A stretch of 37,605 nucleotides of DNA, taken from NCBI GenBank assembly GCA_018060545.1, contig JAGOVW010000005.1, positions 9,270-46,874 on the forward strand. Reading direction: 5' to 3'. Below are positions 9,397 to 26,479 of the stretch, piece after piece (the stretch's first letter is position 1; every line of letters begins with the position of its first letter). Both the position numbers and the translations under genes were made by a program. The notes under the pieces are model-generated. The model made no database searches, was not told where the DNA came from, and was given only the letters and a program-made list of their open reading frames with translations. This DNA is from Minisyncoccota bacterium. Lineage in GTDB: Bacteria > Patescibacteriota > Minisyncoccia > Phycocordibacterales > UBA2100.

Positions 9397-9401
9397 TCTG
9401 T

Positions 9402-9407
9402 TATGCT
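9402..9407 (+). promoter_or_regulatory. Extended -10 of rnhB (leaderless start)
   Basis: TGTTATGCT; the TATGCT ends 7 bases before the ATG at 9415. Confidence 0.6.
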
Positions 9408-9414
9408 CTGCAGC

Positions 9415-9981: not shown

Positions 9982-10049
9982 CACATCAGCATATACATGA
10001 AAAATAGCCGAGGAGGTTGTGGTTCCTTCAGTTCCAACTAGGAGTGTTC

Positions 10050-10262: not shown

Positions 10263-10293
10263 GACGGCGACATAGCCCTCTGATGGGTACCAG

Positions 10294-10318
10294 GGACCCC
10301 GGCCACGTGCCGGGGTCC
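10294..10318 (+). terminator. Hairpin terminator after the Cys-rich gene
   Basis: Perfect 10-bp stem (GGACCCCGGC / GCCGGGGTCC) with a 5-base loop, followed by TCTCTTT. Confidence 0.85.
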
Positions 10319-10367
10319 TCTCTTTATGCGGGCTACTGCCGATGGTCTATAAGGAATATTCCGGCTT

Positions 10368-10410
10368 GCCCAGGCACCCTTCGCAGCTTTGCCGAGAAGG
10401 GTGCCTGGGC
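10368..10410 (+). terminator. Second long hairpin upstream of rpmF
   Basis: Perfect 15-bp inverted repeat (GCCCAGGCACCCTTC and its complement) with a 13-base loop. It sits 24 bases before the rpmF -10 box and 50 bases after the previous terminator. No clear U-tract follows. It may be an insulator, a backup terminator or a regulator of rpmF. Confidence 0.5.
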
Positions 10411-10433
10411 TTGCACGTGTCCATGGCTTTTGG

Positions 10434-10439
10434 TATAGT
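10434..10439 (+). promoter_or_regulatory. Extended -10 of rpmF (leaderless start)
   Basis: TGGTATAGT; the TATAGT ends 8 bases before the ATG at 10448. Confidence 0.65.
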
Positions 10440-10447
10440 CTCCGCCT

Positions 10448-10750
10448 ATGGTAGTCCGCATGCGCGCAACCCGATCACACCGAGACAATCGGCGTTCTCA
10501 CCATGCACTGACGGGCCCCCGCCTCTCAAACTGTGAATGTGGTGCGAAGCACATGCGCCACCGTGCATGCCAGAGCTGTGGTAAGTACCGTGGGAAGCAG
10601 GTGGTAGATGTGGTAGCCCGCACCGAGCGCAATCAGGCGCGCGCAAAGCGCAAGGAGCTCAACCTCCGTGAGTCTGGTATGAATACTGCACCAGCTGAGG
10701 ATGTTACTGCAGAGGAGAAGACTACGAAAGCTGCTAAGGCGGCCAAATAG
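10448..10750 (+). CDS. rpmF: Ribosomal protein bL32 with C-terminal extension
   Basis: Large-subunit protein. The basic start MVVRMRATRSHRDNRRSHHA and the following LTGPRLSN match bL32 closely, as does the zinc-ribbon region CECGAKHMRHRACQSCG with KYRGKQVVDV after it. Two oddities: the first zinc knuckle is CxC where the family has CxxC, a one-residue deletion. The protein is also 100 residues long against about 57-60 usually, with an Arg/Glu/Lys/Ala-rich tail after residue 60. The -10 box lies 8 bases upstream, so the mRNA should be nearly leaderless. It is followed by nusB and rnc on the same strand. Confidence 0.93.
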   Translation: MVVRMRATRSHRDNRRSHHALTGPRLSNCECGAKHMRHRACQSCGKYRGKQVVDVVARTERNQARAKRKELNLRESGMNTAPAEDVTAEEKTTKAAKAAK

Positions 10751-10800
10751 TTTCTCCACAGGTCTGCTGAATTGCCGTACTCTTGTGCGGTTTTTTTCGT

Positions 10801-10806
10801 TACAAT
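10801..10806 (+). promoter_or_regulatory. -10 box of nusB-Nudix (leaderless start)
   Basis: TACAAT ending 7 bases before the ATG at 10814. Confidence 0.6.
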
Positions 10807-10813
10807 GCCACCT

Positions 10814-11728
10814 ATGGCTAATAGGCGGTTGTCCCGCTCGATTGTTCTTCAAACCCTCTTTGAATGGGACTCCGCTGAGTACACCATGGAAATGAATACG
10901 CTCTTCGAGCGCCTTGCATCCTACCGCGATGAATTCGGCGCCACTCCTTCTGACGAACCATTTATGAAAGATCTTTTGCGCATGGTGGTAGCCAAGCGTT
11001 CGGAATTGGATGAGGTTATTACCCAGGCGGCACCTGAGTGGCCAATCGAAAAAATCTCACGCATTGATCGAAATATCCTGCGCATAGGACTCGCAGAACT
11101 TTTGTACGCAGACCGTGGGCAGGTGCCAGCAAAAGTAGCTATCAATGAATCCATCGAACTCGCAAAGACATTTGGCAGTGATTCATCCAGTAAGTTCGTA
11201 AACGGTGTGTTGGGTGCGGTGTATGTGGAATTGGGTGAGCCAGGCAAAGATGATGCACCAAAACGCAAGGAGAAAGTCCCGCGCGAAAAGATGCCGATTG
11301 AAGAGCTGATTGGGGCTGTGGTGTACGCGCGTGAAGGCGATGATGTGTTCCTGGCACTCGTTCACGACATTTTCGGTCACTGGACGCTTTCAAAGGGGCG
11401 CCTGAAGCCAGAGGAGCAGCACCATGATGGCGTAAAGCGCAAAGTACTCGAAGAGATGGGAATTGAAGTAGAGACCATTCACGACGAGGTGCTGGGCGAA
11501 AACGAATATATTGCTAACGATTCAGCTATTCCTGGAGGCAAGAAGCGTCGCCACGCAACCTACTTCCTTGCCTCTGCACCCTTTGCCGAACTCACACTGA
11601 AGCGCGAAGGGGGGCTCGACGATGCGCAATGGTTTCCACTGGCTGCAGTGGGGGATTTGAACTTCTACGACGACATCTTGCCGGTGGTAACCCGTGCCAT
11701 CAATATCTTGGCCCAGCGAGCTAAATAA
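10814..11728 (+). CDS. nusB: NusB antitermination domain fused to a Nudix hydrolase domain
   Basis: Residues 1-141 are a NusB domain, the RNA-binding antitermination factor (MANRRLSRSIVLQTLFEWD; IDRNILRIGLAELLY; KVAINESIELAKTFG; SSKFVNGVLGAVY). A charged linker (about 142-160) leads to a Nudix domain (161-304). Its Nudix box is G195-x5-E201-x7-R209-K210-V-L-E213-E214-M-G216-I, matching GX5EX7REUXEEXGU except that the first Glu of REU is Lys; the two metal-binding Glu are kept. The Nudix substrate cannot be deduced. The ATG at 10814 is chosen because it begins at the NusB motif and has a -10 box 7 bases upstream. The stop lies 6 bases before the first possible rnc start, so the two genes are probably co-expressed. 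Confidence 0.9.
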   Translation: MANRRLSRSIVLQTLFEWDSAEYTMEMNTLFERLASYRDEFGATPSDEPFMKDLLRMVVAKRSELDEVITQAAPEWPIEKISRIDRNILRIGLAELLYADRGQVPAKVAINESIELAKTFGSDSSSKFVNGVLGAVYVELGEPGKDDAPKRKEKVPREKMPIEELIGAVVYAREGDDVFLALVHDIFGHWTLSKGRLKPEEQHHDGVKRKVLEEMGIEVETIHDEVLGENEYIANDSAIPGGKKRRHATYFLASAPFAELTLKREGGLDDAQWFPLAAVGDLNFYDDILPVVTRAINILAQRAK

Positions 11729-11743
11729 GATAGCATGGCGGAC

Positions 11744-12436
11744 ATGGCATTCGATTTCTCATCTTTTGAAAAGCGCGTCGGATTCACTTTTGGCAAAAAG
11801 CATCTGCTGATGCAGGCGTTCACCCACCGTTCCTACCTGAATGAACATAAAGGACCTGACATTGAACACAACGAGCGACTGGAGTTTTTGGGTGACGCGG
11901 TACTCGAATTAGTGGTGACCGATTTTCTGTACAAGAAGTATCCTGAAAAAACTGAAGGGGACTTGACCGCCTACCGGGCTGCCTTGGTTAATACAAACAG
12001 TATTTCGGATGCAGCAGCGAAGCTGGGTATGAACGACCATCTTTTGCTTTCGAAAGGTGAGGCAAAAGACACAGGGCGTGCTCGGCAATACATCCTCGCC
12101 AATACATACGAGGCATTCATTGGTGCGCTGTACCTCGATCAAGGCTACGACGCAGCACATGAATTTATTGCGAACTCGCTTTTTGCAAAGACCGATGAGG
12201 TGGTTGCGATGCGGCTCTGGCAGGATGCAAAGAGTAAGTTCCAGGAGCTTGCCCAAGAGCGCGAAAACGAAACACCGCTCTACAAGCTGGTGGCGGAAAG
12301 CGGCCCTGATCACGATAAGAAATTCATTTCCGGCGTCTTCCTGCGCGATAAGGAAATCGGCCGTGGCGATGGCAAATCGAAACAGGAAGCCGAACAGGCT
12401 GCTGCAGAGAATGCGCTGATGAAGAAGGGGTGGTAG
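11744..12436 (+). CDS. rnc: Ribonuclease III
   Basis: Double-stranded RNA endonuclease for rRNA and mRNA processing. The protein is 230 residues from MAFDFSSFEKRVGFTF. The catalytic domain shows the signature NERLEFLGDAVLEL, the ALVNT segment and the second acidic cluster in NTYEAFIGALYLD. A C-terminal double-stranded-RNA-binding domain (about 155-230) includes KFQELAQERENETPLY and GDGKSKQEAEQAAAENAL. An upstream in-frame ATG at 11735 is an alternative start; 11744 fits the family and has a weak -10-like TAGCAT 7 bases before it. The gene directly follows nusB. Confidence 0.95.
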   Translation: MAFDFSSFEKRVGFTFGKKHLLMQAFTHRSYLNEHKGPDIEHNERLEFLGDAVLELVVTDFLYKKYPEKTEGDLTAYRAALVNTNSISDAAAKLGMNDHLLLSKGEAKDTGRARQYILANTYEAFIGALYLDQGYDAAHEFIANSLFAKTDEVVAMRLWQDAKSKFQELAQERENETPLYKLVAESGPDHDKKFISGVFLRDKEIGRGDGKSKQEAEQAAAENALMKKGW

Positions 12437-12503
12437 TTGCGCGTCCGAGGAATGTGGCGCACACTGCCTCCAGCGTGCCCACACCCCGGAAAGGAGGTCG
12501 ACT

Positions 12504-12707
12504 ATGAGTACCGATCAAGGAGAAAATCGTACGTCAAACATAAAGGTATTCAAGTTGTGCCTCGCGTTGCAGGCATGTATCTGGGTCGGAATCTTCCTGG
12601 CCGGTAGTTTCGGATTCGTGCATGCGCAGAAGGTGCTCTATTTTGCCACGATCTGGACTACTGTGTTGATGGTTGGAGTGGGCATACACATCCTCGAGCG
12701 CACATAA
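12504..12707 (+). CDS. Small two-helix membrane protein, unknown
   Basis: Sixty-seven residues starting MSTDQGENRTSNIKVF. AAAGGAGGT lies 6 bases before the ATG, one of the strongest ribosome-binding sites in the window. Two hydrophobic helices are visible (about 17-39 and 43-62) joined by a short loop with His-Ala-Gln-Lys; both ends are polar. A weak promoter (TTGCGC, 17 bases, CACACT) overlaps the rnc stop. Its own terminator separates it from the convergent operon that follows. No family is recognised. Confidence 0.78.
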   Translation: MSTDQGENRTSNIKVFKLCLALQACIWVGIFLAGSFGFVHAQKVLYFATIWTTVLMVGVGIHILERT

Positions 12708-12725
12708 CGTATGTCGCTAACCAGA

Positions 12726-12747
12726 AGTGCCTCCCCGTGGAGGCACT
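12726..12747. terminator. Terminator between convergent genes
   Basis: Perfect 9-bp stem (AGTGCCTCC / GGAGGCACT) with a 4-base loop, 18 bases after the small membrane gene and 25 bases before the minus-strand operon end. Both transcripts could use it. Confidence 0.75.
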
Positions 12748-12772
12748 CACATTTATGGTGCTGTTCTGGGGC

Positions 12773-15700
12773 CTACACTTTTCGCAGAGGTACTTCTTCC
12801 ACGGTACCGCTCACGTCAGCGACGATAAATATCTCGCGCACAACATCGAATGTAACTGAGGTCGCGTTCGCGTATCGTTTGTTTACCTCAGAAAAGACTT
12901 CCTGAACCTTGCGTTGCCATACACCTGCAAGCTGAACACTGTCGGGCTGTTCGAACACCTTTCTCTGAATCGAATTTAGCGGGGTGCCGGCATCAATGAT
13001 GGGGAGTAGTTGCTCTTGCACACGGGCAATACTGCTACGGGTAAGAATCTGCTGAATGATCCCCATTGTGCCTGCGTCTACAGAAGCAAGGTCAACTATT
13101 GGCGATCCGGTGATGGACAATTGTGCAACGAGAGATTCGGTGGTTTGGAGGTATGCGTCACGCAAGGACAGTAGTTTCATTTTCTCTATCTGCTTGCTGC
13201 CTGGAGCTAATTCAGCTTCGAATGCTGCGATGATTGCTTCGTCGGAGTTGAGGATGGTATTTGGTACGCCCCCACTGAACCAAATCGTTAGGTCGGGGCG
13301 GCCAGGACGAGAAACCTCAGCAGCGACCGTGAGTCCAGGGAGTCGTGGGTTGTAGCGGTATTCGACATCGATGGTGGCTCCACCAAGCTCTTCACTCATA
13401 GATTCGCGAAGGGCTCGTTCGATGACCGGCGCTCGCTGCTTGAGTCCCGTGATCAATTTTTGATACTCCTCGGCTACGGCGGTTAGATCAGCACCCTGCA
13501 GTTCGTTAGTGAGTTCGCGTGCTTGAATAGACGCTTCGAGATTTTGAACTTGATCAGATGAGTAGGTGATGGCTGTGTCGCGGGGAACTCGCTTGCCAGG
13601 CTCCTGCGAGATTTGTAGAAGGGCAGCGTGCTGAATCTCAATCAGGCTATCTATATTCATGAGTTCTTGTAGGTGGATGATGTCTGCAGGCTGTATTGAT
13701 GTGGGTTCTTTATCGAGGAGGCCTGCTTCGATCACCGGGCGTAGTTGCAACAGAGCTTCGCGGCGTGCATACAATTCCTGAACATGGCCTTCGCGTGCTC
13801 GGATTTCTTCCTGTCGGAATTTTGCGTCAAGCGATCGATACCACCGCACGATATTTTCGCGTGCTGCAGGTGTCGATGTGGTTGTGCCAAGCTGCGTAAT
13901 AAAGGCTTGGAGTTTCGCGAGTTCCTCGCTTCGGCCACCATCAACACTCTGCAGTAACTTCTTAACCCCTTCTATTCGATCTTCCTTATACGTGGCGATG
14001 AACTCATTGAGGGTGCGTGCATAGAGGTCGCGGAGCGCTCTGTTGCCAATGTGATGCTGGCGATTGATAAATGCCTGTCCTGCGGGGGTGGTGTGCATCG
14101 GGGGTTGCATCCCTGCGAGTACAGCGGTGCGCAGTTGCCTCTGAAGTATTGCGGTTAAGGTAACGTCGTCACGGTCGTCGTGCTGCAAATCTACCCCACT
14201 CTCTTTTGCCAGTGAAGCAAAAACCCCCGTCTCTCGCTCACGCATGAGACGCACCATGTCTTCCGCGATTTCTGTTTCCACAGTGAAGAGTCCACGCTTC
14301 TCATCCTTCTCGAGTGGTTGTTCTTCCACCCACGACCTCTTAAGTTTCTTCGCGGTGACGGTTGCCAGAGCGGACCCTGCGAGCAGGGTAAGAATAAATG
14401 CAACTAAGAGTCCTAGAGCTTTGTTCTGTCCTTCTGGGGTACTGGTGTCAATGCTGATGCCGTTCTGTTTCAAACTTTGTCCAATGTATCCCCAAATAGG
14501 ACTGTCTGCGGCCGGAATCGCGACGTAATCCCAAACAGTCTTGTCGACGATGGTTGCATACGGACTGCGATCGATACCGAGTTTTGCGACTCGTTCTGGG
14601 GTCAGCGTAAAGATGGTTGACGGAATATCCATGCGAACATCAACGCCGACTTGCTGGTGGACTTCGTCTAGGTAGCGGCTCAGTGTGGCGCTGACGGTAA
14701 CCTGCTGTAGCTGCCGAGCGAGCGCCATGAGTGTCTCGTCTCGGAACTTGCTTTCCGATTTAAACAGCGCCCGCGTGCCACTCGAGTTGTGAAGCACATC
14801 TTCCCACGGGACGTCCTTGGTGAAGATTTCTTTCACGGAAAGCTTTCGTTCACCAACAAATTCTCCCACGTTTGCGGCAAGTTTTTTTGCAACCGAGGGT
14901 GCAGCAGCAACGCCACCAAAGATATTTTCCAATATGCCACTCTCTTCAAGTGCCTTACTTTCGCGCAGTAGCGCATCGAGTGCGGCGAATGTTTTGAGTG
15001 GGTCGACTTTGTCGATTTCAGAGGTAAGTTTTTTCAAGAGCTGTTCCGCGCCGTCCCCTGGCTCTAGGCCGTAGCGTGCATTTATTGCGCTGAGCCTTGT
15101 TTCGATGTCTTCAGGAGCGGGTGCCGCATCTGGGGCGGCTGCTGTAGGTCCCTTTCGTTGCTGCTCTAGCTTCTGGAGCGCGAGTTTTGCCGTTGCAATT
15201 TTTTGACGTGCCGTAGCCTGTTTCTGGCGGTTGGTACCCGCTGCGGCCAGTTCGCTTTCTGCAGCGGCAAGTGCTTGGCGAGCAGGTGCGAGGCGAGGGT
15301 CTTCTGCGGCAGCAGGAGGCGTGGCTGCTTCAGTCCGTGTTGGTGCCGGTGTTGCACCCGTAGGGCGTTGTGGTGCGGATGGTGCTGCCTGCTTGGTGAA
15401 TTCTACATACTTCCTGTCAGCTTCTTGGGTTCGTCCTTCAAGTACTCGACTGGCGCCCCATGATCGCCTGCCAAATCCTTGGAGCACTGCATTTAATGCT
15501 TGCTCCTTCTTCCTATCTATTGCTGGCTTTATGGTGGTAAACAGGCTTCGTGCCTGGTCAATAGTCTGCTTGATCGCGTCTCGTTCTGGGGAGTATGCGG
15601 CTTTCATTTTCCCTCCGATTTCTCCACCAACACCCGCGTCCACCGTTCCGCGAACGGCATTTCCAAAGATGAGGGGGGTAGCAACGGCAAGTGCCGCGAC

Positions 15701-16531
15701 CGTGAGTGCGCCTGATATCTTTGCTTCTTTAGTTGCGCCCCAGGTCATGTCGCCAATCCACGTGACGTAGCCTAAGGCACCGGGGCGTCCCTTAACGCGC
15801 ATTTTTTGGCGCAATAGAAACGCATTGATGCCGAGCGAGGCACCGAGAGCGGTGGCAGTTCGTGCCGTACCCTCGACACCCATGTCGGTCAGCATACCTT
15901 CGCCCGCTTTCTCAATTACTGCGGTGTCTGCTGCCGCAATGACAATGTTTACGGTTGCGGCGATTGGTACTGCGAGTTTTCCGGCGACCAGCTTAACGGT
16001 CCCCAGTGGTCCAACGACTGGCCGACTAGCAACTTTGGTATGTTGAAGAGATTTTGCTGCAGTTGCATCTTGCTCAGCAATTTCGACGGCGCCTTGGGAC
16101 ACAAGGAGTGGCATCAATATGTTATTGGCAGGTATTTCTGCGCCACTCTCTGCTGCTGCAGCCACTTCGGCTGCGTCGTTTGCAAGGCGTTCTGCAAATG
16201 CATCGGCATCGAGTTCTTTGCTTTGAGACATGATCTCAGCAACGCCGGCCTGAGACGCTTTTTGGAGTTCCGGATCGCTTAGGTACGCTGCCACTGCCTT
16301 ATCAATGCTTTCAGGGTCAGCGCTCACGATGTGTGCCAGCTTGGTCTTGAGTTCGGCCACAACGCCTGCACGTATGCGCGCCAGGTGTTCCTGCGCAACG
16401 CCATCGGCCTCGATATCTACCGTATGTTCACTCTGCACAGGGTGCTCGACAGAAACAGGGACGCCCGTGAAGCGCTTAGTAGTTGGACCTGTTTTGCCAT
16501 ATTTTTTCGACAAGTATGATTCTCCGGCCAT
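12773..16531 (-). CDS. Very large unknown membrane-associated protein (1252 aa)
   Basis: Third gene of a minus-strand operon. Its ATG comes one base after the TAA of the previous gene. There is no signal peptide; the N-terminus is basic. Residues 40-170 are Ala/Glu-rich and helical. Hydrophobic segments lie near 176-204 and 272-292, and another clear membrane helix at 705-727 (LGLLVAFILTLLAGSALATV). Between them is a Pro/Ala linker (380-410) and an Ala/Gln/Lys coiled-coil-like stretch (410-460). After the third membrane segment come about 500 residues, mostly charged helices, with a mixed segment near 1050-1100 that looks beta-rich (ATIDVEYRYNPRLPGLTVAA). No catalytic motif or known family is recognised. 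A role as a scaffold or envelope-spanning component is only inference. Confidence 0.85.
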   Translation of the reverse strand: MAGESYLSKKYGKTGPTTKRFTGVPVSVEHPVQSEHTVDIEADGVAQEHLARIRAGVVAELKTKLAHIVSADPESIDKAVAAYLSDPELQKASQAGVAEIMSQSKELDADAFAERLANDAAEVAAAAESGAEIPANNILMPLLVSQGAVEIAEQDATAAKSLQHTKVASRPVVGPLGTVKLVAGKLAVPIAATVNIVIAAADTAVIEKAGEGMLTDMGVEGTARTATALGASLGINAFLLRQKMRVKGRPGALGYVTWIGDMTWGATKEAKISGALTVAALAVATPLIFGNAVRGTVDAGVGGEIGGKMKAAYSPERDAIKQTIDQARSLFTTIKPAIDRKKEQALNAVLQGFGRRSWGASRVLEGRTQEADRKYVEFTKQAAPSAPQRPTGATPAPTRTEAATPPAAAEDPRLAPARQALAAAESELAAAGTNRQKQATARQKIATAKLALQKLEQQRKGPTAAAPDAAPAPEDIETRLSAINARYGLEPGDGAEQLLKKLTSEIDKVDPLKTFAALDALLRESKALEESGILENIFGGVAAAPSVAKKLAANVGEFVGERKLSVKEIFTKDVPWEDVLHNSSGTRALFKSESKFRDETLMALARQLQQVTVSATLSRYLDEVHQQVGVDVRMDIPSTIFTLTPERVAKLGIDRSPYATIVDKTVWDYVAIPAADSPIWGYIGQSLKQNGISIDTSTPEGQNKALGLLVAFILTLLAGSALATVTAKKLKRSWVEEQPLEKDEKRGLFTVETEIAEDMVRLMRERETGVFASLAKESGVDLQHDDRDDVTLTAILQRQLRTAVLAGMQPPMHTTPAGQAFINRQHHIGNRALRDLYARTLNEFIATYKEDRIEGVKKLLQSVDGGRSEELAKLQAFITQLGTTTSTPAARENIVRWYRSLDAKFRQEEIRAREGHVQELYARREALLQLRPVIEAGLLDKEPTSIQPADIIHLQELMNIDSLIEIQHAALLQISQEPGKRVPRDTAITYSSDQVQNLEASIQARELTNELQGADLTAVAEEYQKLITGLKQRAPVIERALRESMSEELGGATIDVEYRYNPRLPGLTVAAEVSRPGRPDLTIWFSGGVPNTILNSDEAIIAAFEAELAPGSKQIEKMKLLSLRDAYLQTTESLVAQLSITGSPIVDLASVDAGTMGIIQQILTRSSIARVQEQLLPIIDAGTPLNSIQRKVFEQPDSVQLAGVWQRKVQEVFSEVNKRYANATSVTFDVVREIFIVADVSGTVEEVPLRKV

Positions 16532-16532
16532 A

Positions 16533-17537
16533 TTATTTTGTAGTTAGTGAGCGTTTTCCTGATAAGACATCTGCAAAATATCGTTCTGATTCGTGTAGTT
16601 CGGTAATGAGCTTTTTGATTTCATCAGGGAGTCGCTGCATCACGACTACCAAGTCCTTGGCCGTGAGCAAGGTTGCCTCAAGGCGAATCGAGAGCCCCTT
16701 TGCATCTGCCGGAGGGGTCACCGCGACGATATCGGCGCCATTGTATTCATATGTCGAGCCATCGAGCGCACGCGTGGCAGATTCGTCGATTGTTTTCATG
16801 ATGGTGATGACCTGTCGATCAATGCGGTCCTTCAGTTCTTTCGCTGCCTCTACCATTGCCTGCGCGAGCTCCAATCCTCTAGCTGTCTCACTAAATCCAT
16901 GCTCTAGTCGTGGATTCACCGGCACATTAGGTGTTGCGTTCCTTTGTACGGATTCACCGGGTGTACTCGAAGTGTCAGTGCTCCACATGTCGACGATGGG
17001 CACCGCTGTTGGGTCGGCTAATTCCTGACGTAGAAGAATTGCTCCAAAGTCTCGCTCGACGTCATTCAGAGAGGTGGTGAGGCCGACGATGTATTGGGGA
17101 AGTTTCTCAATAATTTCTGCAAAGCGGATAGCTGCCTTGCGCGTTACCTCGAGCTGTCGTGCCAGGTCGTTGCCGTCTGTGACGGGGGTGATGATGCCCG
17201 TCGCGGGGTCAAATGTGTATGCTTCGCCATTGAGGACGTGGGTCGTCGCTTCGTCAATGTTTCTAAAAATTCGAATCACCTGATTATCTAGATCAACCTG
17301 CATGCTTTCAATGCGTCGGGTCAGTTCGAGAGCTGTTTCGGTTGTTCTTGCTACCTGATCGAAGCCCGTGTGCAGTGTTCCATCGGTAGGGGTGTTCGTT
17401 CTGCGCTGTGGTGCCTCAGGAGACGCGACTGATGGAGCTGCTTGTACAGGTTCTGCGATGGGTAGCGCCTGTGCGGCTTCCTTGGCTTTCCACCCTGCTC
17501 CTTTGAGATTTCCAAGTTTCAATTTTTCGGATGCCAT
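16533..17537 (-). CDS. Unknown protein with two copies of a ~115-residue domain
   Basis: Middle gene of the operon, 334 residues. A basic N-terminus and a Pro/Ala linker (about 25-50) precede repeat 1 (55-168) and repeat 2 (211-325), separated by a Ser/Thr/Pro linker. Matching positions in the two copies include GF near the start, an Asp/Arg-x-QVI-x-I core followed by IDE, L-x-G-x-x-Y before a short beta-like insert, LE-x-T, then LP-x-x-I and ER-x-F-x-x-x-L near the end. The predicted fold is helix, short beta hairpin, helix. No enzyme motif is seen. The gap to the upstream gene is 9 bases and to the downstream gene one base, so all three should be expressed together. Confidence 0.85.
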   Translation of the reverse strand: MASEKLKLGNLKGAGWKAKEAAQALPIAEPVQAAPSVASPEAPQRRTNTPTDGTLHTGFDQVARTTETALELTRRIESMQVDLDNQVIRIFRNIDEATTHVLNGEAYTFDPATGIITPVTDGNDLARQLEVTRKAAIRFAEIIEKLPQYIVGLTTSLNDVERDFGAILLRQELADPTAVPIVDMWSTDTSSTPGESVQRNATPNVPVNPRLEHGFSETARGLELAQAMVEAAKELKDRIDRQVITIMKTIDESATRALDGSTYEYNGADIVAVTPPADAKGLSIRLEATLLTAKDLVVVMQRLPDEIKKLITELHESERYFADVLSGKRSLTTK

Positions 17538-17546
17538 AGTAGTTGA

Positions 17547-19574
17547 TTACATTTCAAGCGCTGTTTTTAATGCCGCTACTGCTGCGGCTGCTTCGGCGCC
17601 ATTGTCACTTAGAATTGCGTTCTGTGTTTTGGTCAGCGCCTCTTTTACTGTAGGCTCCAAATCTTCTTGTGCTCCCAGTGCCTCAATGGACATGCCCATC
17701 TCAGTTTCAATGGTTTCAACAAGTTGCAGTAGTTGTGCCAAGGGGTCAGCAGTCTCTTCAAGGCGAATGTGGACACTGTCCGGGGCAATCTCGATAAATT
17801 GTTCCGCGGGAACTCCGGCTACCTGAAGAAGCTTAATGCCTTCCTCCCATGAGGTGCGCCCCTCGTCTTGCACGGACACTGCGTCTTCGAGCATTTGATC
17901 GAGGAGTGTAGCAACTGGCTTCCAACCTTCACTGTTGTTTAGTTCGCGATCTCTCCACCCGCGCATACGGTCTACCTTTGAATCTAAATGTGCGCGTGCT
18001 CGCCTGAGGATCTTCATCGTTTGAAGGAGCATGCCGTCCTCACGAACTGAGGCCCATCCTTGCTCGGGTTCCTCACTGTACTGGTCATTCACGTATGCCC
18101 GCACCGCCTCAAAGTTGTTTTTGGCTTGCATGAAATTGCCGTGAGCAACGGCGATATGCTGTGTGAGCTTCTCGAGCCCTTCAAGGTGTACGCGTGCCGT
18201 GGGTGCTTTTGATTGGCGCAGTATCTGAAGTGCATTTCGAACCTGGCTATCCCAGTTGTCTACGAACTCTTCGCTCCCTGTGTCATCATCGCTTAGTTCG
18301 CCGATGCGCTTGTCGATACCTTCCGCTGTGGTTGGTAGCTGAGATTCGGTGACATACAAACGATTACCTGCTGACTCGATAATCGTTCTAAACTTTTCAA
18401 CCGGGACGCCGTTCTTTTTTGCTTGGCTCGAAATGAAATTCTGCCCAGACCGGTACTCTTCGCTTGCACGGTATGCGGCAAGTTCGTCACGTGCTTCTGC
18501 GCTGTCTGCGCGAGCGGCCGCTTTCTCGAGCTCTGCTTCTTTGCGCTGTGCCAGATACGTTTCAACGTGACGTGCGAGTAATGCAATTGATTGAGAGTCA
18601 AACGCAAACTTTATACTCTCTGATGATCGGGCGGTGTCCTCGGCTGGTACTTCAATTTTAAGAATTCGTGCTGACACAAGTGCCCAGAGCGCGTTTTCAT
18701 ACTGACGACTGTCGCGTTCTGATGGATTTTCGCGCAGCGCTTTTACCAAAATGCTTTTTGCAAAAAGTAAGGCAAAGGCACGTGTCTGTGGATTGGCAAT
18801 GCTTCCTTTTTCAGGATCAGCAGCACGCTCAACCTCGTGCACAAATTTAAGCAGACCATAGTTTACGGTTGCCCCTCGCTCATTAACCACATGCTCAAAC
18901 TGTGGCTCCATGGGCGGCAGGTCTTCAGGGCGAGAACGGTCCTGGAAGTATGGTGCTATGTAGTTTGGCGCGATAGGGAATTGGTAGATGTTGCTCGTCT
19001 GAGTCAATTTCGAGAGTTCAATGCGAACGGCGTCGCCTGCTTCAGTACTTGGAATTACAGAGGGGTTGATGGCGTATGCCCACAGTTCTGGAGGGACACC
19101 TTGGGTTTGCATGCGCTCAATGAGTGAACGAGCAGCAATTTCTTGCTGTGCTCTAGCAACCTTTTCGTACATCTGCTCCCAATTTTCTCTCGCTTTCTTT
19201 CCTACAGGCGGGCTTTTCGTAAGTTTCTTGCTTCCATCAATGTACGGGCGGATTTCAGCAGGGATCTTTGCGTGCATCTGCCAGAACTCCTCCCAATTAA
19301 ACTCGCCTTTGGTTTTTTTTGAACGAGCTGCTAGATACTCGCGAATGTCTGCTGCACGAACCTTTATCGCTTGTGCGATCTGGGCCTCTTCTTCAGGTGT
19401 GCCTATGTGGCTCTCGGCAAAGATGAGTTTTGCTAGGCGGGCAATATCGGGGTCTGTTTGCTTTTTTCGGGGCCCTTCCTTGGAGGGTAGGGTGGCCACT
19501 TTCGTTGGTCTCGCTGCTTTTTCCAGAGGAGGGCGCTTTCTACCCAGGGGAGCCTTAATTGTGTTTTCTGACAT
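17547..19574 (-). CDS. Unknown 675-aa helical protein, first gene of operon
   Basis: The start MSENTIKAPLGRKRPP at 19574 is chosen because TATACT ends 7 bases before it, which predicts a leaderless mRNA; the longer frame to 19595 would overlap that box. The first 45 residues are very basic and disordered. Residues of about 42-190 include LAKLIFAESHIGTPEEEAQ and then NWEEFW and WAYAINPS, an order faintly like SleB-type cell-wall hydrolases (LA-x-LI-x-AE, later NP), but many expected residues are missing. The remainder is charged helix with coiled-coil character (360-400) and no membrane segment or signal peptide. Function unknown. Confidence 0.85.
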   Translation of the reverse strand: MSENTIKAPLGRKRPPLEKAARPTKVATLPSKEGPRKKQTDPDIARLAKLIFAESHIGTPEEEAQIAQAIKVRAADIREYLAARSKKTKGEFNWEEFWQMHAKIPAEIRPYIDGSKKLTKSPPVGKKARENWEQMYEKVARAQQEIAARSLIERMQTQGVPPELWAYAINPSVIPSTEAGDAVRIELSKLTQTSNIYQFPIAPNYIAPYFQDRSRPEDLPPMEPQFEHVVNERGATVNYGLLKFVHEVERAADPEKGSIANPQTRAFALLFAKSILVKALRENPSERDSRQYENALWALVSARILKIEVPAEDTARSSESIKFAFDSQSIALLARHVETYLAQRKEAELEKAAARADSAEARDELAAYRASEEYRSGQNFISSQAKKNGVPVEKFRTIIESAGNRLYVTESQLPTTAEGIDKRIGELSDDDTGSEEFVDNWDSQVRNALQILRQSKAPTARVHLEGLEKLTQHIAVAHGNFMQAKNNFEAVRAYVNDQYSEEPEQGWASVREDGMLLQTMKILRRARAHLDSKVDRMRGWRDRELNNSEGWKPVATLLDQMLEDAVSVQDEGRTSWEEGIKLLQVAGVPAEQFIEIAPDSVHIRLEETADPLAQLLQLVETIETEMGMSIEALGAQEDLEPTVKEALTKTQNAILSDNGAEAAAAVAALKTALEM

Positions 19575-19581
19575 GGTTTTA

Positions 19582-19587
19582 AGTATA
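19582..19587 (-). promoter_or_regulatory. -10 box of the three-gene unknown operon
   Basis: TATACT on the minus strand, 7 bases before the ATG at 19574. Divergent from the promoter at 19685-19712. Confidence 0.65.
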
Positions 19588-19684
19588 TATTGCACACCCT
19601 CAGTTGCTGATAATTCTCTCGATTTTTGTTGATAAACACGTTTAAGCGCTGCTTTTGATCGGGGAGATGTAATAGCACCATAAG

Positions 19685-19712
19685 TTGACAGATTAGTTAT
19701 AAGTGATATAAT
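19685..19712 (+). promoter_or_regulatory. Near-consensus sigma70-type promoter
   Basis: TTGACA, 16-base spacer, TATAAT. This is the best match to the vegetative consensus in the window. Transcription should begin near 19719. Confidence 0.85.
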
Positions 19713-19724
19713 AGAAAAGGAGCC

Positions 19725-19766
19725 ATGTTAGAGGCTCAGAACCCAACCTTGGGAGTGCTCAGATGA
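19725..19766 (+). CDS. Possible 13-aa leader peptide overlapping the next start
   Basis: Reads MLEAQNPTLGVLR and stops at TGA, which overlaps the ATG of the 248-aa gene as ATGA. Its ATG lies about 5 bases from the predicted transcript start, so it could be read leaderlessly and couple translation into the main gene. It may also be chance. Confidence 0.35.
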   Translation: MLEAQNPTLGVLR

Positions 19767-20509
19767 GCAAGACGACGAACCTCTTCTTTTCGTACCCCCG
19801 CACCAACCGCCTGATCCCCGGCCTTCGGGTCGAGCCAATCAAGCGCGGAGCGAATGCATTCCCCACACCTTGTGTGGTGCTCGGCTCTGCGCACAACGGC
19901 AGGCTGATCAAGGGGAGTGCCGCGATTCCGCTGGATTTTTCGAATCCGCCGGAGTTGGGGAACGAGAAGGTGTTCGCAGGGTCGTTCGGTGAGGTGCCCA
20001 ACAGCGGCCTCAACCTGACAGCCTTGAATGCAGATGAGCCGGGTGTTTCCTTTGTCCTTGTCAGGACCGGCTTCATCTTTACCGACGGGGGTGTCATGGG
20101 CGATTTGGGGCGTATGCAGCAGGCTTTTCGGGCCGAGGGGAAAGAGCCGAAGCTCTGGAACCACGGATCGGTTGCCTTGCACGCAGCGGCTCAGCAGATG
20201 CTGCTTACGGCACACAGTGGCGCGCAAGTCGATGAGGTCGACCTGCCCAAGGCGGAAGCCCAGGCAGTGAAGACCGTCGTGGGCTACCGCCCCGGCCTCG
20301 GCATGCCTGCCTACGTGTATCGACTGTGGAAGATGCCAGACGATTCTGCACTCCTCGTTCGCGATGTGTCCGGTTTCATCTATCGGATCGTCAACGAGAA
20401 GCGCAGGACCGATATGGTCGACGCCACAGGCCAGCACTACCATGACATGTTCGAGATGCTCCTCGGAGAGCAGCAGAAGCCGCGGTTCATTCTTCCCGCT
20501 GCGGCATGA
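19763..20509 (+). CDS. Unknown 248-aa soluble protein
   Basis: Starts MSKTTNLFFSYPRTNRLIPG; GGGAG lies about 8 bases before the ATG. The N-terminal half looks beta-rich (PCVVLGSAHNGRLIKG; GVSFVLVRTGFIFTD). The C-terminal half is mixed and ends with QHYHDMFEMLLGEQQKPR. There is no signal peptide or membrane helix and only one Cys. Codons look more GC-ending than in the neighbours, though this was judged by eye. The gene has a strong promoter and a strong terminator and stands alone between two blocks of unknown large proteins. A CCCAA/TTGGG palindrome in the leader overlaps the ribosome-binding site. No family is recognised. Confidence 0.8.
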   Translation: MSKTTNLFFSYPRTNRLIPGLRVEPIKRGANAFPTPCVVLGSAHNGRLIKGSAAIPLDFSNPPELGNEKVFAGSFGEVPNSGLNLTALNADEPGVSFVLVRTGFIFTDGGVMGDLGRMQQAFRAEGKEPKLWNHGSVALHAAAQQMLLTAHSGAQVDEVDLPKAEAQAVKTVVGYRPGLGMPAYVYRLWKMPDDSALLVRDVSGFIYRIVNEKRRTDMVDATGQHYHDMFEMLLGEQQKPRFILPAAA

Positions 20510-20536
20510 TCTGCGGTTTCTCCCAGAGCATCTTTG

Positions 20537-20560
20537 GTCGGCGCGAGCAATCGCGCCGAC
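20537..20560 (+). terminator. Terminator after the 248-aa gene
   Basis: Perfect 10-bp stem (GTCGGCGCGA / TCGCGCCGAC) with a GCAA tetraloop, followed by TTCTTTTT. Confidence 0.92.
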
Positions 20561-20616
20561 TTCTTTTTATATCCACAAAGTTCATTGAGTTAAAAAAAAG
20601 TAGGTGGTCCATGCGG

Positions 20617-20622
20617 TAGAAT
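20617..20622 (+). promoter_or_regulatory. -10 box of the 1057-aa gene (leaderless start)
   Basis: TAGAAT ending 6 bases before the ATG at 20629. Confidence 0.55.
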
Positions 20623-20628
20623 GGCACC

Positions 20629-23600
20629 ATGGATGCAGCTCCGAGAACTGTTCGATCAATTGATCCTAAAAATCCGACCTCTGTGCCAGGCGGAGCGGTT
20701 GCTATAGAAAAGACAGCGGGCGGCGACTTCTTTTTTACAGATGCAGCAGGTACACGCCTTCGCCAGCTGGATTCTGTGGAGGCGACGACTGTTTTGACAA
20801 TGGGGCAAGCAGGTAACGTGTCTCCTACACCGGATGCTGTTGTGGAGGTGGCAAACCTAAATCGTGGACGACTACCCGTTTCTGACGATGCAGCGGGGGC
20901 TCTATCCGTAAATGGTGCCCAACAAACACAGTCTCGCAGGCAAGTTCCACCAGCGCCTGCTGCTGCAGCGGCACAGCCCCAAGTGGTACCTGGCAGTCCT
21001 GTTAGTCAGGCACCCGATACTGGTCCTGGTAGCGGCACCGCGGTGATGGATGCTGCAGCAATTGAGTCCGCTCGTGCAGATTTACGCACCCGAATTACGC
21101 GCTCAGGTCTAGATCGTTCAGTGCAAAATAGACTGACTCAAGATGTCCAGAGCCGTGAGAGTGTGGCAGAATTCAGTGCTATTGAGCTAGAACTTGAACA
21201 ATTGATTCAGGCTGCGGCGCAGACTAATGGACCTACTCCTGAAATTCTTGCTGAGGAACGTGAGAGGTGGAAAGCCATGATGAGAGGCAACGTGAGCGGG
21301 TCATCTCTGGACGATGGTGAGAAAGATAGACTATTGGGATTGCTCGATAGTGTTAACGATAGTGCTGCGATACAGGCGGTGGGCGAGCAGCTCCGCGCTG
21401 CCCTTACCCGACGTGTAGCACCGACCGCACCTTCTACGACAGGGCCGGCAGGTGCTCCTATATTGCCCGCAGCTGCACCAGTTGCACCGGGAGCTGCACC
21501 TCTAGATCCTGCCCTGCAGCGACTCACTGATGCTGTTGCCGCGACGCAGCAACAGTTACAGGCTTTGATTGCACAAATGGCAGCGGCTCCTCGGCCCGCA
21601 GCTGCAGCCGCTCCGATTCAACCCCCGCCACCAGCAATGCCCACTGCGCCAACGTTTGTCCCATCGATTAAGGCTCAGGTGCCAGAGCCTCTGGGTTTTG
21701 TTCCATCCAATCCTCAGCCACGAGGTGCGCATGGCATAGTGGGCCAAGACAACCTTCATAACTGGTGGGTCAAGAGTCCAAACGGTGCCCATTTTCAATA
21801 CGACACACCGGCCAATGCGATTGAAGCTGCAAGGCAAATGAACGGTAACGGTGGCACTGTGGGCACTGGTCCTGCGGCGCCTGTTGTCGGTGCGCTATCC
21901 ATTGTCGGCCCTGGTGGCGTCGCGGGTTCGGTTGATCAGCTGATTGCACAGAGTGATCAAGCCCGCAATGCGCTCAATGGCAGTATTGTTGCACCGCTTA
22001 CCGCGCAAGAACTTGCGCAACTAGCAGACCCTCATCTTTCTGCAGGCGAGAGGGCAGTGCTGCAAGGGCGACGTGATGCGCGCACCCGCTTCGAGCAGCA
22101 GTTTATGTCAGCAGAAAACCAGCTCGCACAAATCCGTGGCGCGTTGGCAAGGCAAAGCGCAGCGGTTATGAATGGAGCGCCAACACCAGCTGTTGCAGCA
22201 CATGTGACACGGGCGAATCGATCTATCGCTGCGATTCTCGCGCAGGAAGCAGCAGACTATCGCGCAAAGAATGGACGAGTGCTAGGTACGTTGCAGTATC
22301 TGGTACGTTGGCAATCAAAAGCCATTCTTACGGGTGGTCTAGTTGGCGCAGGAGTTACTACAGCAGCGGTCTTAACTGGTGGCGCTGGGTTGGCAACCGC
22401 GATGGGGGCTGGTGCTCTGTCAGGAGCGGCGCGAGCACGATTTGATTTGAGTAGCGCACGGGCAATTCTCGAGAAAAAGGCAAACGAGGCAGCGAGTGCG
22501 GGACAACCACAAGAAGCTATCGCATTGCGAACAGAGGCGGCTGCATTAGGCAGCGCTGCAGCGTTGCGACACGCCGTGCTCACTACAAGTATCGGTGCTG
22601 TTGGTGGTGCCGCTGGTTTTGGCTTGATGAGTGATTCAGGGCTCGGTTTTGGTAGGAAGATTTTAGGGTGGGCAAGTTCTGCATGGGCATCACTTCCTAT
22701 TGGTGGGCAACCCGCGGCAACTGTTGCTGCGGTAGGTGCAGGTGTCAATGCGGCACCGTCAGGACAAGTTGCAAGTGGATTAGTAACACGACCACGCCCG
22801 ATCGTATTGGCGCCTGTAGCGGGACCGCGGCCACTTGTAGCCGTAGGTGGCGCGCCGCGTCCTCGGCTTGTTGGCGCGGAAGAATGGATAATGGCAAAAC
22901 GAGGTGAATTGATTATCCCTGGATATGGGCGCCCGCAGCAGTGCGGAATTGATGTGCACGGCAAAAAATTACTCACGCAATTGGGAAATGGGAGTACGAT
23001 TTTGGATACCATCACTAAAGAGCGCAGTTGGGGAACACCGCGCTGCCTTGCAGCACTGCGTGGACAATTTGATGTTGCGTTTGGACACCCGAGCGGCCCG
23101 AGCATGGCCGGCATATTTGTTGAGAACTACCAGGGTAAAACGGCAGAACGTGCAGTCGTACCAGGGGCAGTGGTGGATACACTGAGCACGGTGCGAGGAC
23201 GCGCAACTACGGTAGTGCCTGGTGTTGATATGGTTCCACCAGCTCCAGCAACCCTCGCTGAAGCGTTGGGTATGCCGCGCCCCGGCATTTCACTTGCAGA
23301 TACAATTCCGGCCGATGGTATTCGCACGCCGGAAATAGCTCGTGGAGCAACTCAGGTGGTCATTGGAACGAACTCACCTGATTCACTTGGGCGCTTGGTC
23401 GCACGCGCGGGCATTGATGGATACGCGAATGAACTGCTCTTTAAAGGTGACGCACCACTACGTGGGCTTGCAGGAAAGGGGCGTTTAGAACTGATCGATC
23501 TGATTCGCAGTGTACTCACGCGGAACGACTCACTTGTAAAAGAAATGTTTCCAGGGCATCCAAATCCTGTATCACTCATCAGATCGGGTGATATTACTTT

Positions 23601-23802
23601 CACCACCGGCGCAAAGATGGATATGAACGTATTTAAGAATCCACTGTTTACACAGGCGCTTCTGCAAGCGGTTGAGCAATGGAAGCAGGGTGGTCTTCCT
23701 GCATATGTCACTACGGAATTCGGAGGCAATGCTCGCACATTTGCAGAAACAGTAGCGCGACTGCTTTCAGAATCGCCGCGTCCACGAATCATTCCTGCCT
23801 AA
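20629..23802 (+). CDS. Very large Ala/Pro/Gly-rich unknown protein (1057 aa)
   Basis: There is no signal peptide. Soluble, low-complexity Ala/Pro/Gln linkers lie at about 100-140, 262-295 and 318-345, and two helical segments at 140-260. A small Trp-containing module (about 355-405; HNWWVKSPNGAHF) follows, then a helical region to 545. Next come two Gly/Ala-rich hydrophobic stretches (about 563-600 and 645-672) that could form a membrane hairpin, then another Pro/Val linker and a C-terminal region of about 300 residues with several Cys (PQQCGIDVHGKK; GTPRCLAALRG). The layout resembles the 1252-aa protein upstream (linkers, a Gly/Ala hydrophobic pair, a long tail), although no clear sequence match was found by eye. 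A 118-aa gene follows 35 bases later. Function unknown. Confidence 0.87.
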   Translation: MDAAPRTVRSIDPKNPTSVPGGAVAIEKTAGGDFFFTDAAGTRLRQLDSVEATTVLTMGQAGNVSPTPDAVVEVANLNRGRLPVSDDAAGALSVNGAQQTQSRRQVPPAPAAAAAQPQVVPGSPVSQAPDTGPGSGTAVMDAAAIESARADLRTRITRSGLDRSVQNRLTQDVQSRESVAEFSAIELELEQLIQAAAQTNGPTPEILAEERERWKAMMRGNVSGSSLDDGEKDRLLGLLDSVNDSAAIQAVGEQLRAALTRRVAPTAPSTTGPAGAPILPAAAPVAPGAAPLDPALQRLTDAVAATQQQLQALIAQMAAAPRPAAAAAPIQPPPPAMPTAPTFVPSIKAQVPEPLGFVPSNPQPRGAHGIVGQDNLHNWWVKSPNGAHFQYDTPANAIEAARQMNGNGGTVGTGPAAPVVGALSIVGPGGVAGSVDQLIAQSDQARNALNGSIVAPLTAQELAQLADPHLSAGERAVLQGRRDARTRFEQQFMSAENQLAQIRGALARQSAAVMNGAPTPAVAAHVTRANRSIAAILAQEAADYRAKNGRVLGTLQYLVRWQSKAILTGGLVGAGVTTAAVLTGGAGLATAMGAGALSGAARARFDLSSARAILEKKANEAASAGQPQEAIALRTEAAALGSAAALRHAVLTTSIGAVGGAAGFGLMSDSGLGFGRKILGWASSAWASLPIGGQPAATVAAVGAGVNAAPSGQVASGLVTRPRPIVLAPVAGPRPLVAVGGAPRPRLVGAEEWIMAKRGELIIPGYGRPQQCGIDVHGKKLLTQLGNGSTILDTITKERSWGTPRCLAALRGQFDVAFGHPSGPSMAGIFVENYQGKTAERAVVPGAVVDTLSTVRGRATTVVPGVDMVPPAPATLAEALGMPRPGISLADTIPADGIRTPEIARGATQVVIGTNSPDSLGRLVARAGIDGYANELLFKGDAPLRGLAGKGRLELIDLIRSVLTRNDSLVKEMFPGHPNPVSLIRSGDITFTTGAKMDMNVFKNPLFTQALLQAVEQWKQGGLPAYVTTEFGGNARTFAETVARLLSESPRPRIIPA

Positions 23803-23837
23803 ACACTATTTACTATTATCATCACTAAATAGCCCGT

Positions 23838-24194
23838 ATGCCTACTGAAGAACAAGATAAGAACGTGCAAGCAATTATCACTGAGCTAAATATCGGCCAT
23901 CTTTCTCAAGAAGAGCAAGATGAAATATTGGACACACTCGGCGATATTGCACTCAAGCGCGTATTGATGACTGTATTCGACCGTATCCCTGAGGCTGAGC
24001 GCGACGTGTTCCAGGACTTACTTGAGAAAAATGATCAGGAGGGTATCCAGAAACTGCTCGGGCAGCATGTTCCTGAGTTCTCAGAACTGGTTGCTGATTC
24101 ATTGAAGATGACCGTCGAAGAGCATAAGCGCCTGGTAGGCGAAGAGGTGGGCTTTGTGGAAGAAGGGCCAGGATCGGGGCCGATGCCGGTGTAA
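23838..24194 (+). CDS. Small acidic helical protein, unknown
   Basis: One hundred and eighteen residues starting MPTEEQDKNVQAIITELNIG. It is strongly acidic and all-helical in appearance: two halves rich in Leu/Glu (HLSQEEQDEILDTLGDIALK; EAERDVFQDLLEKND), then a Gly/Pro tail. It has the look of a small protein type often seen next to large unknown genes in CPR genomes (a DUF5663-like assignment is only a guess). A TAAATA 6 bases upstream may be its own -10. It shares the terminator at 24211 with the 1057-aa gene. Confidence 0.82.
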   Translation: MPTEEQDKNVQAIITELNIGHLSQEEQDEILDTLGDIALKRVLMTVFDRIPEAERDVFQDLLEKNDQEGIQKLLGQHVPEFSELVADSLKMTVEEHKRLVGEEVGFVEEGPGSGPMPV

Positions 24195-24210
24195 GTGATC
24201 ACAAGAAATA

Positions 24211-24239
24211 AAAAGGCGGCCCCGCAGGGGCCGCCTTTT
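24211..24239 (+). terminator. Terminator before smc
   Basis: Perfect 13-bp stem (AAAAGGCGGCCCC and its complement, ending TTTT) with a 3-base GCA loop. Confidence 0.95.
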
Positions 24240-24261
24240 CGGTACCGTGCATGATTGATGG

Positions 24262-24267
24262 TATTAT
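24262..24267 (+). promoter_or_regulatory. Extended -10 of smc (leaderless start)
   Basis: TGGTATTAT; the TATTAT ends 7 bases before the ATG at 24275, which decides the start over the ATG at 24251. Confidence 0.65.
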
Positions 24268-24274
24268 TTCTTTC

Positions 24275-26479
24275 ATGTTGAAATCCGTTACCATTTCCGG
24301 ATTTAAATCGTTCGGCAAGAAAGTCGAGCTTTCTTTTGGCGCATCAATTGCCGCTGTAGTGGGGCCAAATGGTTCTGGGAAAAGTAACGTCGCCGAGGCG
24401 CTGCGTTTCGTTTTGGGTGAACAGTCCATGAAGTCGATGCGCTCAAAAAAGGGAGAAGACCTCATCTGGGGTGGCTCGGGCGCGCTGCCACGCGGTAACC
24501 GCGCGAGTGTGCAGGTCACATTCGACAATCGCTCGCGACGTATGGACCTTGATTTTGATGAAGTTATTTTGGAACGTGTCGTGTATCGCGACGGACAAAA
24601 CGAGTACCTCATGAACGGTACCCAGGTGCGCCTCAAGGACGTGATCCGTTTGTTGGCTGGGGCAAACATTGGTGGCTCGGGTTACCAAATTATTTCCCAA
24701 GGCGAAGCTGATCGCGTGCTCTCAGCAACACCACGCGAACGACGAGAAATGGTGGAAGACGCTCTTGGTCTGAAGCTCTATCAGCACAAAAAAGCTGAGA
24801 GCGAACGGAAACTGGAGGAGACACGGTTGAATATAGAAAAAGTCGAATCCCTGCGTCGTGAGCTGGCGCCTCATTTGAAATTCTTGCGCAAGCAGGTAGA
24901 GAAGATTGAAAAGACGAAAGAACTGAAAGATGAGCTCACGTTCCGTCTAAGCGAGTACTTGGCACGCGAGCATGCGTGGTTGCAGGCAGAGAAAACCCGT
25001 ATTGACGATGAGAAGGGCGCCCTCGCGTCGCAACGCGCGGCGATTGCTGCAGCACAGGAGCAGGCGGTCCACGCCATGCGGGCGGACGAAAAAGAAAGCG
25101 ACAATGGGGCGGTTCTTCACGCAGAAGAAGCACTGAGAGGCGTGCGCGAACGCCGAGAGGACGCGATGCGCGCTTTGGGGCGTGCCGAAGGTGCGCTAGA
25201 TGCTATGAAGCGGGTGAGTGGGCCTACCAGTATGCCTACCGAACGCGCAACAGCGTTTGCACGTGTTGTGCTTCGTTTTGCGGAAGTGGCACTGACCACA
25301 GACGACATGGCACAAGTCCGCGAACAAATCGCACGCATTCGTGATGAGGCAGCAACTTTTGTGCACGGTATTGAAGGCGATCGAGCAGGCGATCAGGAGA
25401 AGAGTAAGGCGGAATTTGAGGTTGCCGAACTTGCTAAACAGCTCGCATCTGCACGTGAGGATGAGCTGGTAGCACAGACGGCGCTTAACACTGCCCGTGC
25501 AGCTCGAGAAAAACTGAAAGAAGCAGCACATCAGGCTGAACGCGAGGCATTGAATGCCAACGCCAGCCTACGAGAGTTGGAAGGGCGGATACGCGACGCA
25601 GACCGTCGTGCGGAAGAAGTGGCACGAGCGCGCGAGGCATTCGAAGGTGAAGTTCGTGAGGGTATTGCGCTTATCGGCGCAGCGGTGCACGGATGGGAAG
25701 AGGGAGGAGTTCCTGAGGGAGCGCTATCAGAAGATAGGTCCCTTCAGGTGGAACGACGCCGCTCACTCGAGCGTTTAAAAATAAAAATTGAAGAATACGG
25801 AGCAGGAAATAGTGATGAGGTGCTACGTGAGTTCAAGCAGACCCATGAGCGAGACGAATTTTTGGGGCGCGAATTAGGCGACCTTTCGCAATCACAGCAG
25901 TCGCTGCTGCAGATTATTGAAGAGCTCGATGCCGAGATGGATCGCCGCTTTACTGACGGTCTCACCAAAATTAATGATGCGTTGCACGTATTCTTTACGC
26001 GACTCTTTGGTGGTGGCGAGGCACGGTTATTTATAGAAAAGCCTCGCGCAGAACGCGAAGAAGGGGATGATGAAGTTGTAGAGGAGGAGCCAGTAACGCT
26101 CGTGTCGGAAGACATTGCTCCTGTCTCTGGGCTATCAATTGCGGTGCAATTGCCGCGTAAAAAAGTGCGCGGGCTCGAAGTGCTCTCTGGTGGCGAACGA
26201 GCGCTCACTTCCATCGCGCTCATCTTCGCCATGAGCCAGGTAAACCCGCCGCCATTTTTGATACTCGACGAAACCGATGCGGCTCTCGATGAGGCGAACA
26301 GCAAGCGGTATGCCGACATGCTTACTGCACTATCCGAGCGCAGCCAATTGATCGTGATTACACACAATCGTGCCACGATGTCGGCGGCAGGGGAGTTGTA
26401 TGGTGTGACGATGGGTCAGGATGGGGTGTCGCGCCTCCTCTCGGTGCGTCTGGAGGAAGCTGAACGTGTTGCAAAATAA
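24275..26479 (+). CDS. smc: SMC-family ATPase, very short with almost no hinge
   Basis: Chromosome organisation ATPase. N-terminal head: MLKSVTISGFKSFGKK, Walker A GPNGSGKSN (30-38), Q-loop region, NIGGSGYQIISQGEADRVLS. C-terminal head: signature VLSGGERALTS (636-646), Walker B FLILDETDAALDEAN (661-675) and a switch His in VITHNRATMS. At 734 residues it is far shorter than the usual ~1150-1200. Coiled coil covers about 165-310 and 370-550, but between them there are only about 60 residues (311-370) instead of the roughly 150-200-residue hinge; no Gly-rich hinge motifs or CxxC hook are visible. The start at 24275 fits the head domain and a -10 box 7 bases upstream. No scpA or scpB is present in the window. 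It could also be called an SMC-like or RecN/Rad50-like protein, but both head motifs fit SMC best. Confidence 0.88.
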   Translation: MLKSVTISGFKSFGKKVELSFGASIAAVVGPNGSGKSNVAEALRFVLGEQSMKSMRSKKGEDLIWGGSGALPRGNRASVQVTFDNRSRRMDLDFDEVILERVVYRDGQNEYLMNGTQVRLKDVIRLLAGANIGGSGYQIISQGEADRVLSATPRERREMVEDALGLKLYQHKKAESERKLEETRLNIEKVESLRRELAPHLKFLRKQVEKIEKTKELKDELTFRLSEYLAREHAWLQAEKTRIDDEKGALASQRAAIAAAQEQAVHAMRADEKESDNGAVLHAEEALRGVRERREDAMRALGRAEGALDAMKRVSGPTSMPTERATAFARVVLRFAEVALTTDDMAQVREQIARIRDEAATFVHGIEGDRAGDQEKSKAEFEVAELAKQLASAREDELVAQTALNTARAAREKLKEAAHQAEREALNANASLRELEGRIRDADRRAEEVARAREAFEGEVREGIALIGAAVHGWEEGGVPEGALSEDRSLQVERRRSLERLKIKIEEYGAGNSDEVLREFKQTHERDEFLGRELGDLSQSQQSLLQIIEELDAEMDRRFTDGLTKINDALHVFFTRLFGGGEARLFIEKPRAEREEGDDEVVEEEPVTLVSEDIAPVSGLSIAVQLPRKKVRGLEVLSGGERALTSIALIFAMSQVNPPPFLILDETDAALDEANSKRYADMLTALSERSQLIVITHNRATMSAAGELYGVTMGQDGVSRLLSVRLEEAERVAK

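Follow-up and report, generated by a model that had tools for sequence, protein, structure and literature searches.

Predicted membrane giants, their putative soluble partners and DUF5663 in a variable rnc–smc spacer of Patescibacteria

Patescibacteria have genomes of about 1 Mb, and their contact with host cells is a large open question. In one such genome (1.08 Mb in 71 contigs), a 37.6 kb stretch of DNA—hereafter the window, meaning the whole stretch that was analysed—carries a block of large proteins between rnc (encoding RNase III) and smc, with housekeeping genes on both sides (thrS, malic enzyme, dnaE, nusB, rnc, smc, rnr, trmD and rpoB). A preliminary description read five of these genes as a single important system, perhaps an envelope or host-contact complex. 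Do the genes of this spacer belong together, and what might such giant proteins do for the cell? Giant membrane proteins that are kept in ~1-Mb genomes, exchanged at a fixed site and, in one of two modules, paired with a small protein of the family DUF5663 would be candidate parts for contact with the host or for facing phages.

The spacer is filled by six genes (Table 1). The five ORFs of the preliminary description and the gaps of 9 and 1 bases inside the minus-strand operon were recovered exactly, and these ORFs are taken as real genes because each has homologs elsewhere: those of 1252, 334 and 675 aa in a relative (G018), the 118-aa protein as a member of DUF5663, and the C-terminus of the 1057-aa protein in a second relative (G015). 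For B675 an alternative GTG start at 19595 is possible, which would give 682 aa. The sixth gene, A248, had been overlooked, and the 1057-aa gene is not back to back with the operon as had been thought: because A248 with its promoter and terminator sits between them, A1057 does not directly face the operon, and it probably belongs to a separate transcription unit. The promoter-like site upstream of A248 is the sole match with at most one mismatch in the window (0.04 expected), and the A248 homolog in the relative G306 has a 10/12 match. The block thus probably comprises three transcription units, namely B675-B334-B1252, A248 on its own, and A1057-A118, behind which come the palindromic hairpin and smc.

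Table 1. Genes and transcription signals in and around the rnc–smc spacer (positions in the window).
Feature	Position	Strand	Remarks
rnc (RNase III), left spacer border	11735..12436	+	Pfam Ribonucleas_3_3 1e-38, dsrm
B1252, predicted membrane protein, 1252 aa	12773-16531	-	
B334, soluble, 334 aa	16533-17537	-	
B675, soluble, first gene of the operon, 675 aa	17547-19574	-	ATG at 19574
Sigma70 promoter-like site upstream of A248	19685-19712	+	TTGACA-16-TATAAT, extended TG, 12/12
A248, soluble, 248 aa	19763-20509	+	homologs in G306, G020, G054
Terminator-like hairpin after A248	20536-20561	+	11-bp stem, 8 GC pairs, T tail
A1057, predicted membrane protein, 1057 aa	20629-23802	+	
A118, DUF5663 (PF18908), small, acidic, 118 aa	23838-24194	+	
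Terminator-like hairpin between A118 and smc, near-perfect palindrome	24210..24240	.	14-pair stem; scored on - strand
smc, right spacer border	24251..26479	+	Pfam SMC_N 6e-67

Searches of Pfam, NCBIfam, PHROGs and PADLOC with the block proteins returned nothing convincing except for A118, which matches DUF5663 above the curated cut-off (33.8 bits vs 23.7; residues 13-94, profile positions 1-82 of 84). DUF5663 is a known, uncharacterised Pfam family and the sole known family among the block proteins; the view that these proteins lack a known family thus holds for the giants and fails for the 118-aa protein. B1252 had no match above the cut-off in any of the four collections; weak Pfam matches to ING, HrpF and DUF4924, all below the cut-off, were taken as chance. 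In none of the six proteins was a domain found whose known function is in binding or in the envelope, and no enzyme or fold could be assigned; the lack of an enzyme motif in the giants had been noted before. The shared plan ascribed to the two giants comes down to gross composition, since hhalign finds no homology between A1057 and B1252 and their hydrophobic segments are arranged differently (at 565-583 and 649-667 in A1057, at three places in B1252). These segments are predicted, with fair support, to insert in the membrane.

The surroundings of smc were compared in 40 relatives, in 37 of which both rnc and smc lie on the stretch. The order and orientation of the two genes are identical in all 37, and the spacer between them ranges from 12 bp to 12.1 kb with differing cargo; the majority of spacers are empty or hold one or two small ORFs. 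The order of the flanks is fixed and the cargo differs between relatives; by the sequences compared, the spacer is therefore a place where gene content varies within this family of Patescibacteria. The minus-strand operon recurs at the same site in relatives, but the five genes of the preliminary description do not travel together: G018 has an operon of the 675-334-1252 type without DUF5663; G015 and G022 have DUF5663 and large proteins without the minus-strand operon; G306 has the operon, adjoining rnc, together with an A248 homolog; and G033 combines a homolog of B675 with a protein of 1128 aa that is no homolog of B1252 and with DUF5663 beside a protein of 585 aa. The supposed single system therefore resolves into separable modules on the two strands, which we call A (plus) and B (minus). 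Importance in the sense of essentiality is contradicted, because the block is absent from most relatives (B1252 occurs in two of 52 genomes of the sister genus, g3).

The 675-334-1252 operon of module B is one unit, which reappears at this position in up to three relatives and is absent from every other family sampled; the nearest named relative that carries it is a Candidatus Nomurabacteria MAG (CALRFU010000005.1). Its most constant member is B675, with homologs in G018, G306 and G033, every one at the rnc–smc site (three of the 52 g3 genomes). B1252 has homologs only in G018 (41% identity over 1226 aa) and G306 (24%), and none beyond the window and G018 in 347 genomes sampled across the order. 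The protein that holds its position in G033, the one of 1128 aa, has no detectable homology to it. B334 is built from a ~115-aa unit that is present twice in tandem (half-to-half phmmer 4e-18, and 3e-28 in the 336-aa G018 homolog, to which it is 25% identical) and is absent or replaced in G306 and G033; a 191/212-aa protein of G306 was considered as its counterpart and rejected for want of detectable homology.

The genes of this operon differ in their histories. Like rnc, B675 follows kinship, with 46% identity between G018 and G306 vs 23-27% to the window, whereas B1252 is 41% identical between the window—which is of another genus—and G018 vs 23% between G018 and G306, a pattern that is even along its length. 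The type of B334 tracks that of B1252. Because the window and G018 share both types while rnc and B675 group G018 with G306, this mosaic of four genomes suggests that B334 and B1252 were exchanged as a pair between lineages. The alternative that the locus is ancestral and vertically inherited, lost in most relatives and with proteins that diverge fast, would explain why G018 and the window agree exactly in site and in operon order; we think it unlikely, given the conflicting similarity patterns of adjacent genes and the non-homologous replacement in G033.

The hydrophobic segments of B1252 lie at 176-199, 272-290 and 705-723, with a Pro-rich linker at about 367-429. The strongest, 705-723, is followed by a K/R cluster (five to six K/R in the 20 residues after it in all three B1252 homologs). 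By the positive-inside rule, a K/R cluster after a transmembrane segment predicts the cytoplasmic side, and so the C-terminal half of B1252 is predicted to be cytoplasmic. This topology is drawn from hydropathy, because the AlphaFold2 model is poor (pLDDT 44; residues 53-1252, 3 sequences).

In module A, A248 is 32% identical to a 232-aa homolog in G306, which is divergently oriented beside the 675-aa homolog as in the window. An HMM of A248 also matches proteins in G020 (7.6e-16) and G054 (3.4e-11), and in both, at a site other than rnc–smc, a large protein and then a small acidic one come after the homolog. A248, a large protein and a small protein may thus form another unit. The large proteins of G020 and G054 have no detectable homology to A1057; their small proteins, considered as DUF5663, are like it in size and charge only, with no detectable homology.

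A1057 has hydrophobic segments at 565-604 and 649-667, Pro/Ala-rich linkers and a conserved C-terminal domain (~921-1015). This domain is common to proteins that precede DUF5663 and smc, namely in G015 (2e-4) and, after iteration, in G033; the G015 protein in turn weakly matches the DUF5663 partner of G022. In many families the partners of DUF5663 carry, after their membrane segments, a conserved domain with the motif 'GD-S/T-VW ... PGQ.I.F' that resembles LysM (PF01476), although its Pfam LysM matches (E 0.05-0.1) fall below the cut-off and A1057 itself has no Pfam match. When the A1057 C-terminal domain was compared by hhalign with a profile of this LysM-like domain without shared members, P was 0.17 for the window alone, 1.7e-4 with G015 added and 0.017 with G015 and G033 added, and column shuffles gave 0.24-0.78; the link to the wider LysM-like domain is only suggestive. 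A higher hhalign probability for this link (96.8) was discarded as circular, G022 being in both profiles.

A regularity concerns DUF5663, of which we found no mention in the literature searched. The AlphaFold2 model of A118 has five helices (pLDDT 86.8); Foldseek returned no match to it in the PDB at E 0.001, and the best VIA hit (Z 5.3, 82 residues at 5.5 Å) was not convincing. The DUF5663 profile searched against PDB sequences matched only a designed helical repeat, together with weak helical matches. In a sample of 51 distinct DUF5663 genes, at least 35 have, directly before them and within 100 bp, an ORF of 440 aa or more on the same strand, and with a threshold of 240 aa at least 41 have such an ORF directly before them—counts that are lower bounds, since some stretches end before the neighbor—vs a background of 22 of 179 (12%) for small genes in the same neighborhoods after an ORF of at least 440 aa. 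The preceding ORFs differ widely in sequence, and most have hydrophobic segments. In size, in acidity and in its place right behind a large ORF, A118 is like most members; it differs in that its partner is a 1057-aa giant beside smc. Conversely, among 27 loci with the 'GD-S/T-VW' domain, DUF5663 lies downstream within the stretch at 15, and at another two (L136, L137) by genome position. This pairing, which hints at a role at the cell surface or in secretion that would be undescribed, provides a handle for finding more such proteins.

Some DUF5663 loci depart from the common arrangement or have neighbors of other kinds. At L117 (G120) and L173 (G032), DUF5663 genes form arrays of three in which no two copies adjoin the same large or membrane protein, and three genomes have DUF5663 ahead of proteins of 1157-1472 aa (L175:7818-11816, +; L176:3048-6521, -; L120:1149-5567, +), one of which has a glycosyltransferase family 2 domain. 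M23/LysM peptidases lie near DUF5663 at L114.

In four genomes (families f44 and f62), a VirD4-type coupling ATPase (DUF87, T4SS-DNA_transf, TraG-D_C) lies directly upstream of the giant and DUF5663, and an ATPase-like ORF adjoins two more loci that carry the LysM-like domain. Module A might on this basis be a type IV secretion accessory, with the giant and DUF5663 as substrates or adaptors recruited by the coupling ATPase. The window genome itself encodes two TraG-D_C coupling ATPases, but on other contigs (C61 and C50), which counts against a secretion link of the block; in Patescibacteria, such ATPases are usually encoded away from virB4 (PMC12102498). No secretion gene, VirB4/VirD4-type genes included, was found in or near the block; the giants are not known type IV secretion components, and most DUF5663 loci are without a coupling ATPase, adjoining uvrD, tuf, rpsL or smc. 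We therefore regard this explanation as having a rather low probability.

The gene content of the spacer, the conservation of its site, the discordant histories, the DUF5663 pairing and the hydrophobic segments are read from the sequences themselves, and from them we infer topology, partner binding, surface exposure and function. Our favored reading, advanced tentatively and at a little under even odds, is that the block is an exchangeable cassette at rnc–smc, composed of two modules of membrane-anchored giants with soluble partners. In module B, the constant soluble B675 would be made with an exchangeable membrane giant, B1252, and the co-varying repeat protein B334; B1252 would be anchored by its hydrophobic helices with the middle part extracytoplasmic and the large helical C-terminal half in the cytoplasm, where B334 and B675 probably bind it. 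Module A would comprise A248, the membrane giant A1057 and DUF5663; A1057 would be threaded through the membrane with its C-terminal domain exposed, and DUF5663 would most likely bind the adjacent giant or hold it ready, as a dedicated small chaperone or adaptor. Between them, the two modules would form variable complexes that belong to the envelope or are linked to secretion and that face the host cell or phages. A role in the envelope or in host contact, as in the preliminary description, persists as a conjecture. A broader version, on which we would place less weight, is a modular system across Patescibacteria in which the constant helical DUF5663 partners a rapidly exchanged membrane giant, with the B675-B334-B1252 operon in parallel, and which forms a variable host- or phage-facing surface of epibiotic cells.

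The favored cassette resembles genomic hotspots, where cassettes occupy fixed sites, in its fixed flanks, variable cargo and conflicting gene histories, and differs from them in having no recombinase or mobility gene and in its cargo of unknown families. Defence islands, too, typically occur patchily, are exchanged between lineages and sit at a fixed insertion site, and the block could be an undescribed defence or conflict (toxin-immunity-like) cassette turning over at a chromosomal hotspot. This seems improbable: the block proteins gave no nuclease, NTPase or toxin match, PADLOC gave only a 12.7-bit match (in B334), and the giants have the look of structural proteins anchored in the membrane. 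The variable cargo at one site in relatives might also suggest that the block is what is left of an integrated phage or mobile element; this is largely refuted and very improbable, for the block has no integrase, tRNA, phage family or (by PHROGs) phage gene of known function, its GC equals that of the rest of the window (0.534 vs 0.531), and relatives of its proteins were found in no viral contig or phage record (viral contigs being scanned for block proteins other than DUF5663).

Further observations concern the neighborhood of the block. In G030 a type IV pilus cluster (L045, about 5900-13000) with T2SSE, T2SSF and several prepilins occupies the rnc–smc spacer, where the window has its giants. 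Elsewhere in the window, a 579-aa ORF (372-2111, +) has no Pfam match, and its C-terminal ~200 residues are conserved beside thrS in many relatives. Finally, SMC carries an intein at the P-loop in two relatives, G015 (L063:2296-5688, -) and G037 (L064:12642-16538, +); the G037 intein has a LAGLIDADG domain, whereas in that of G015 a NYN domain (Pfam 7e-17) takes the place of a LAGLIDADG endonuclease.
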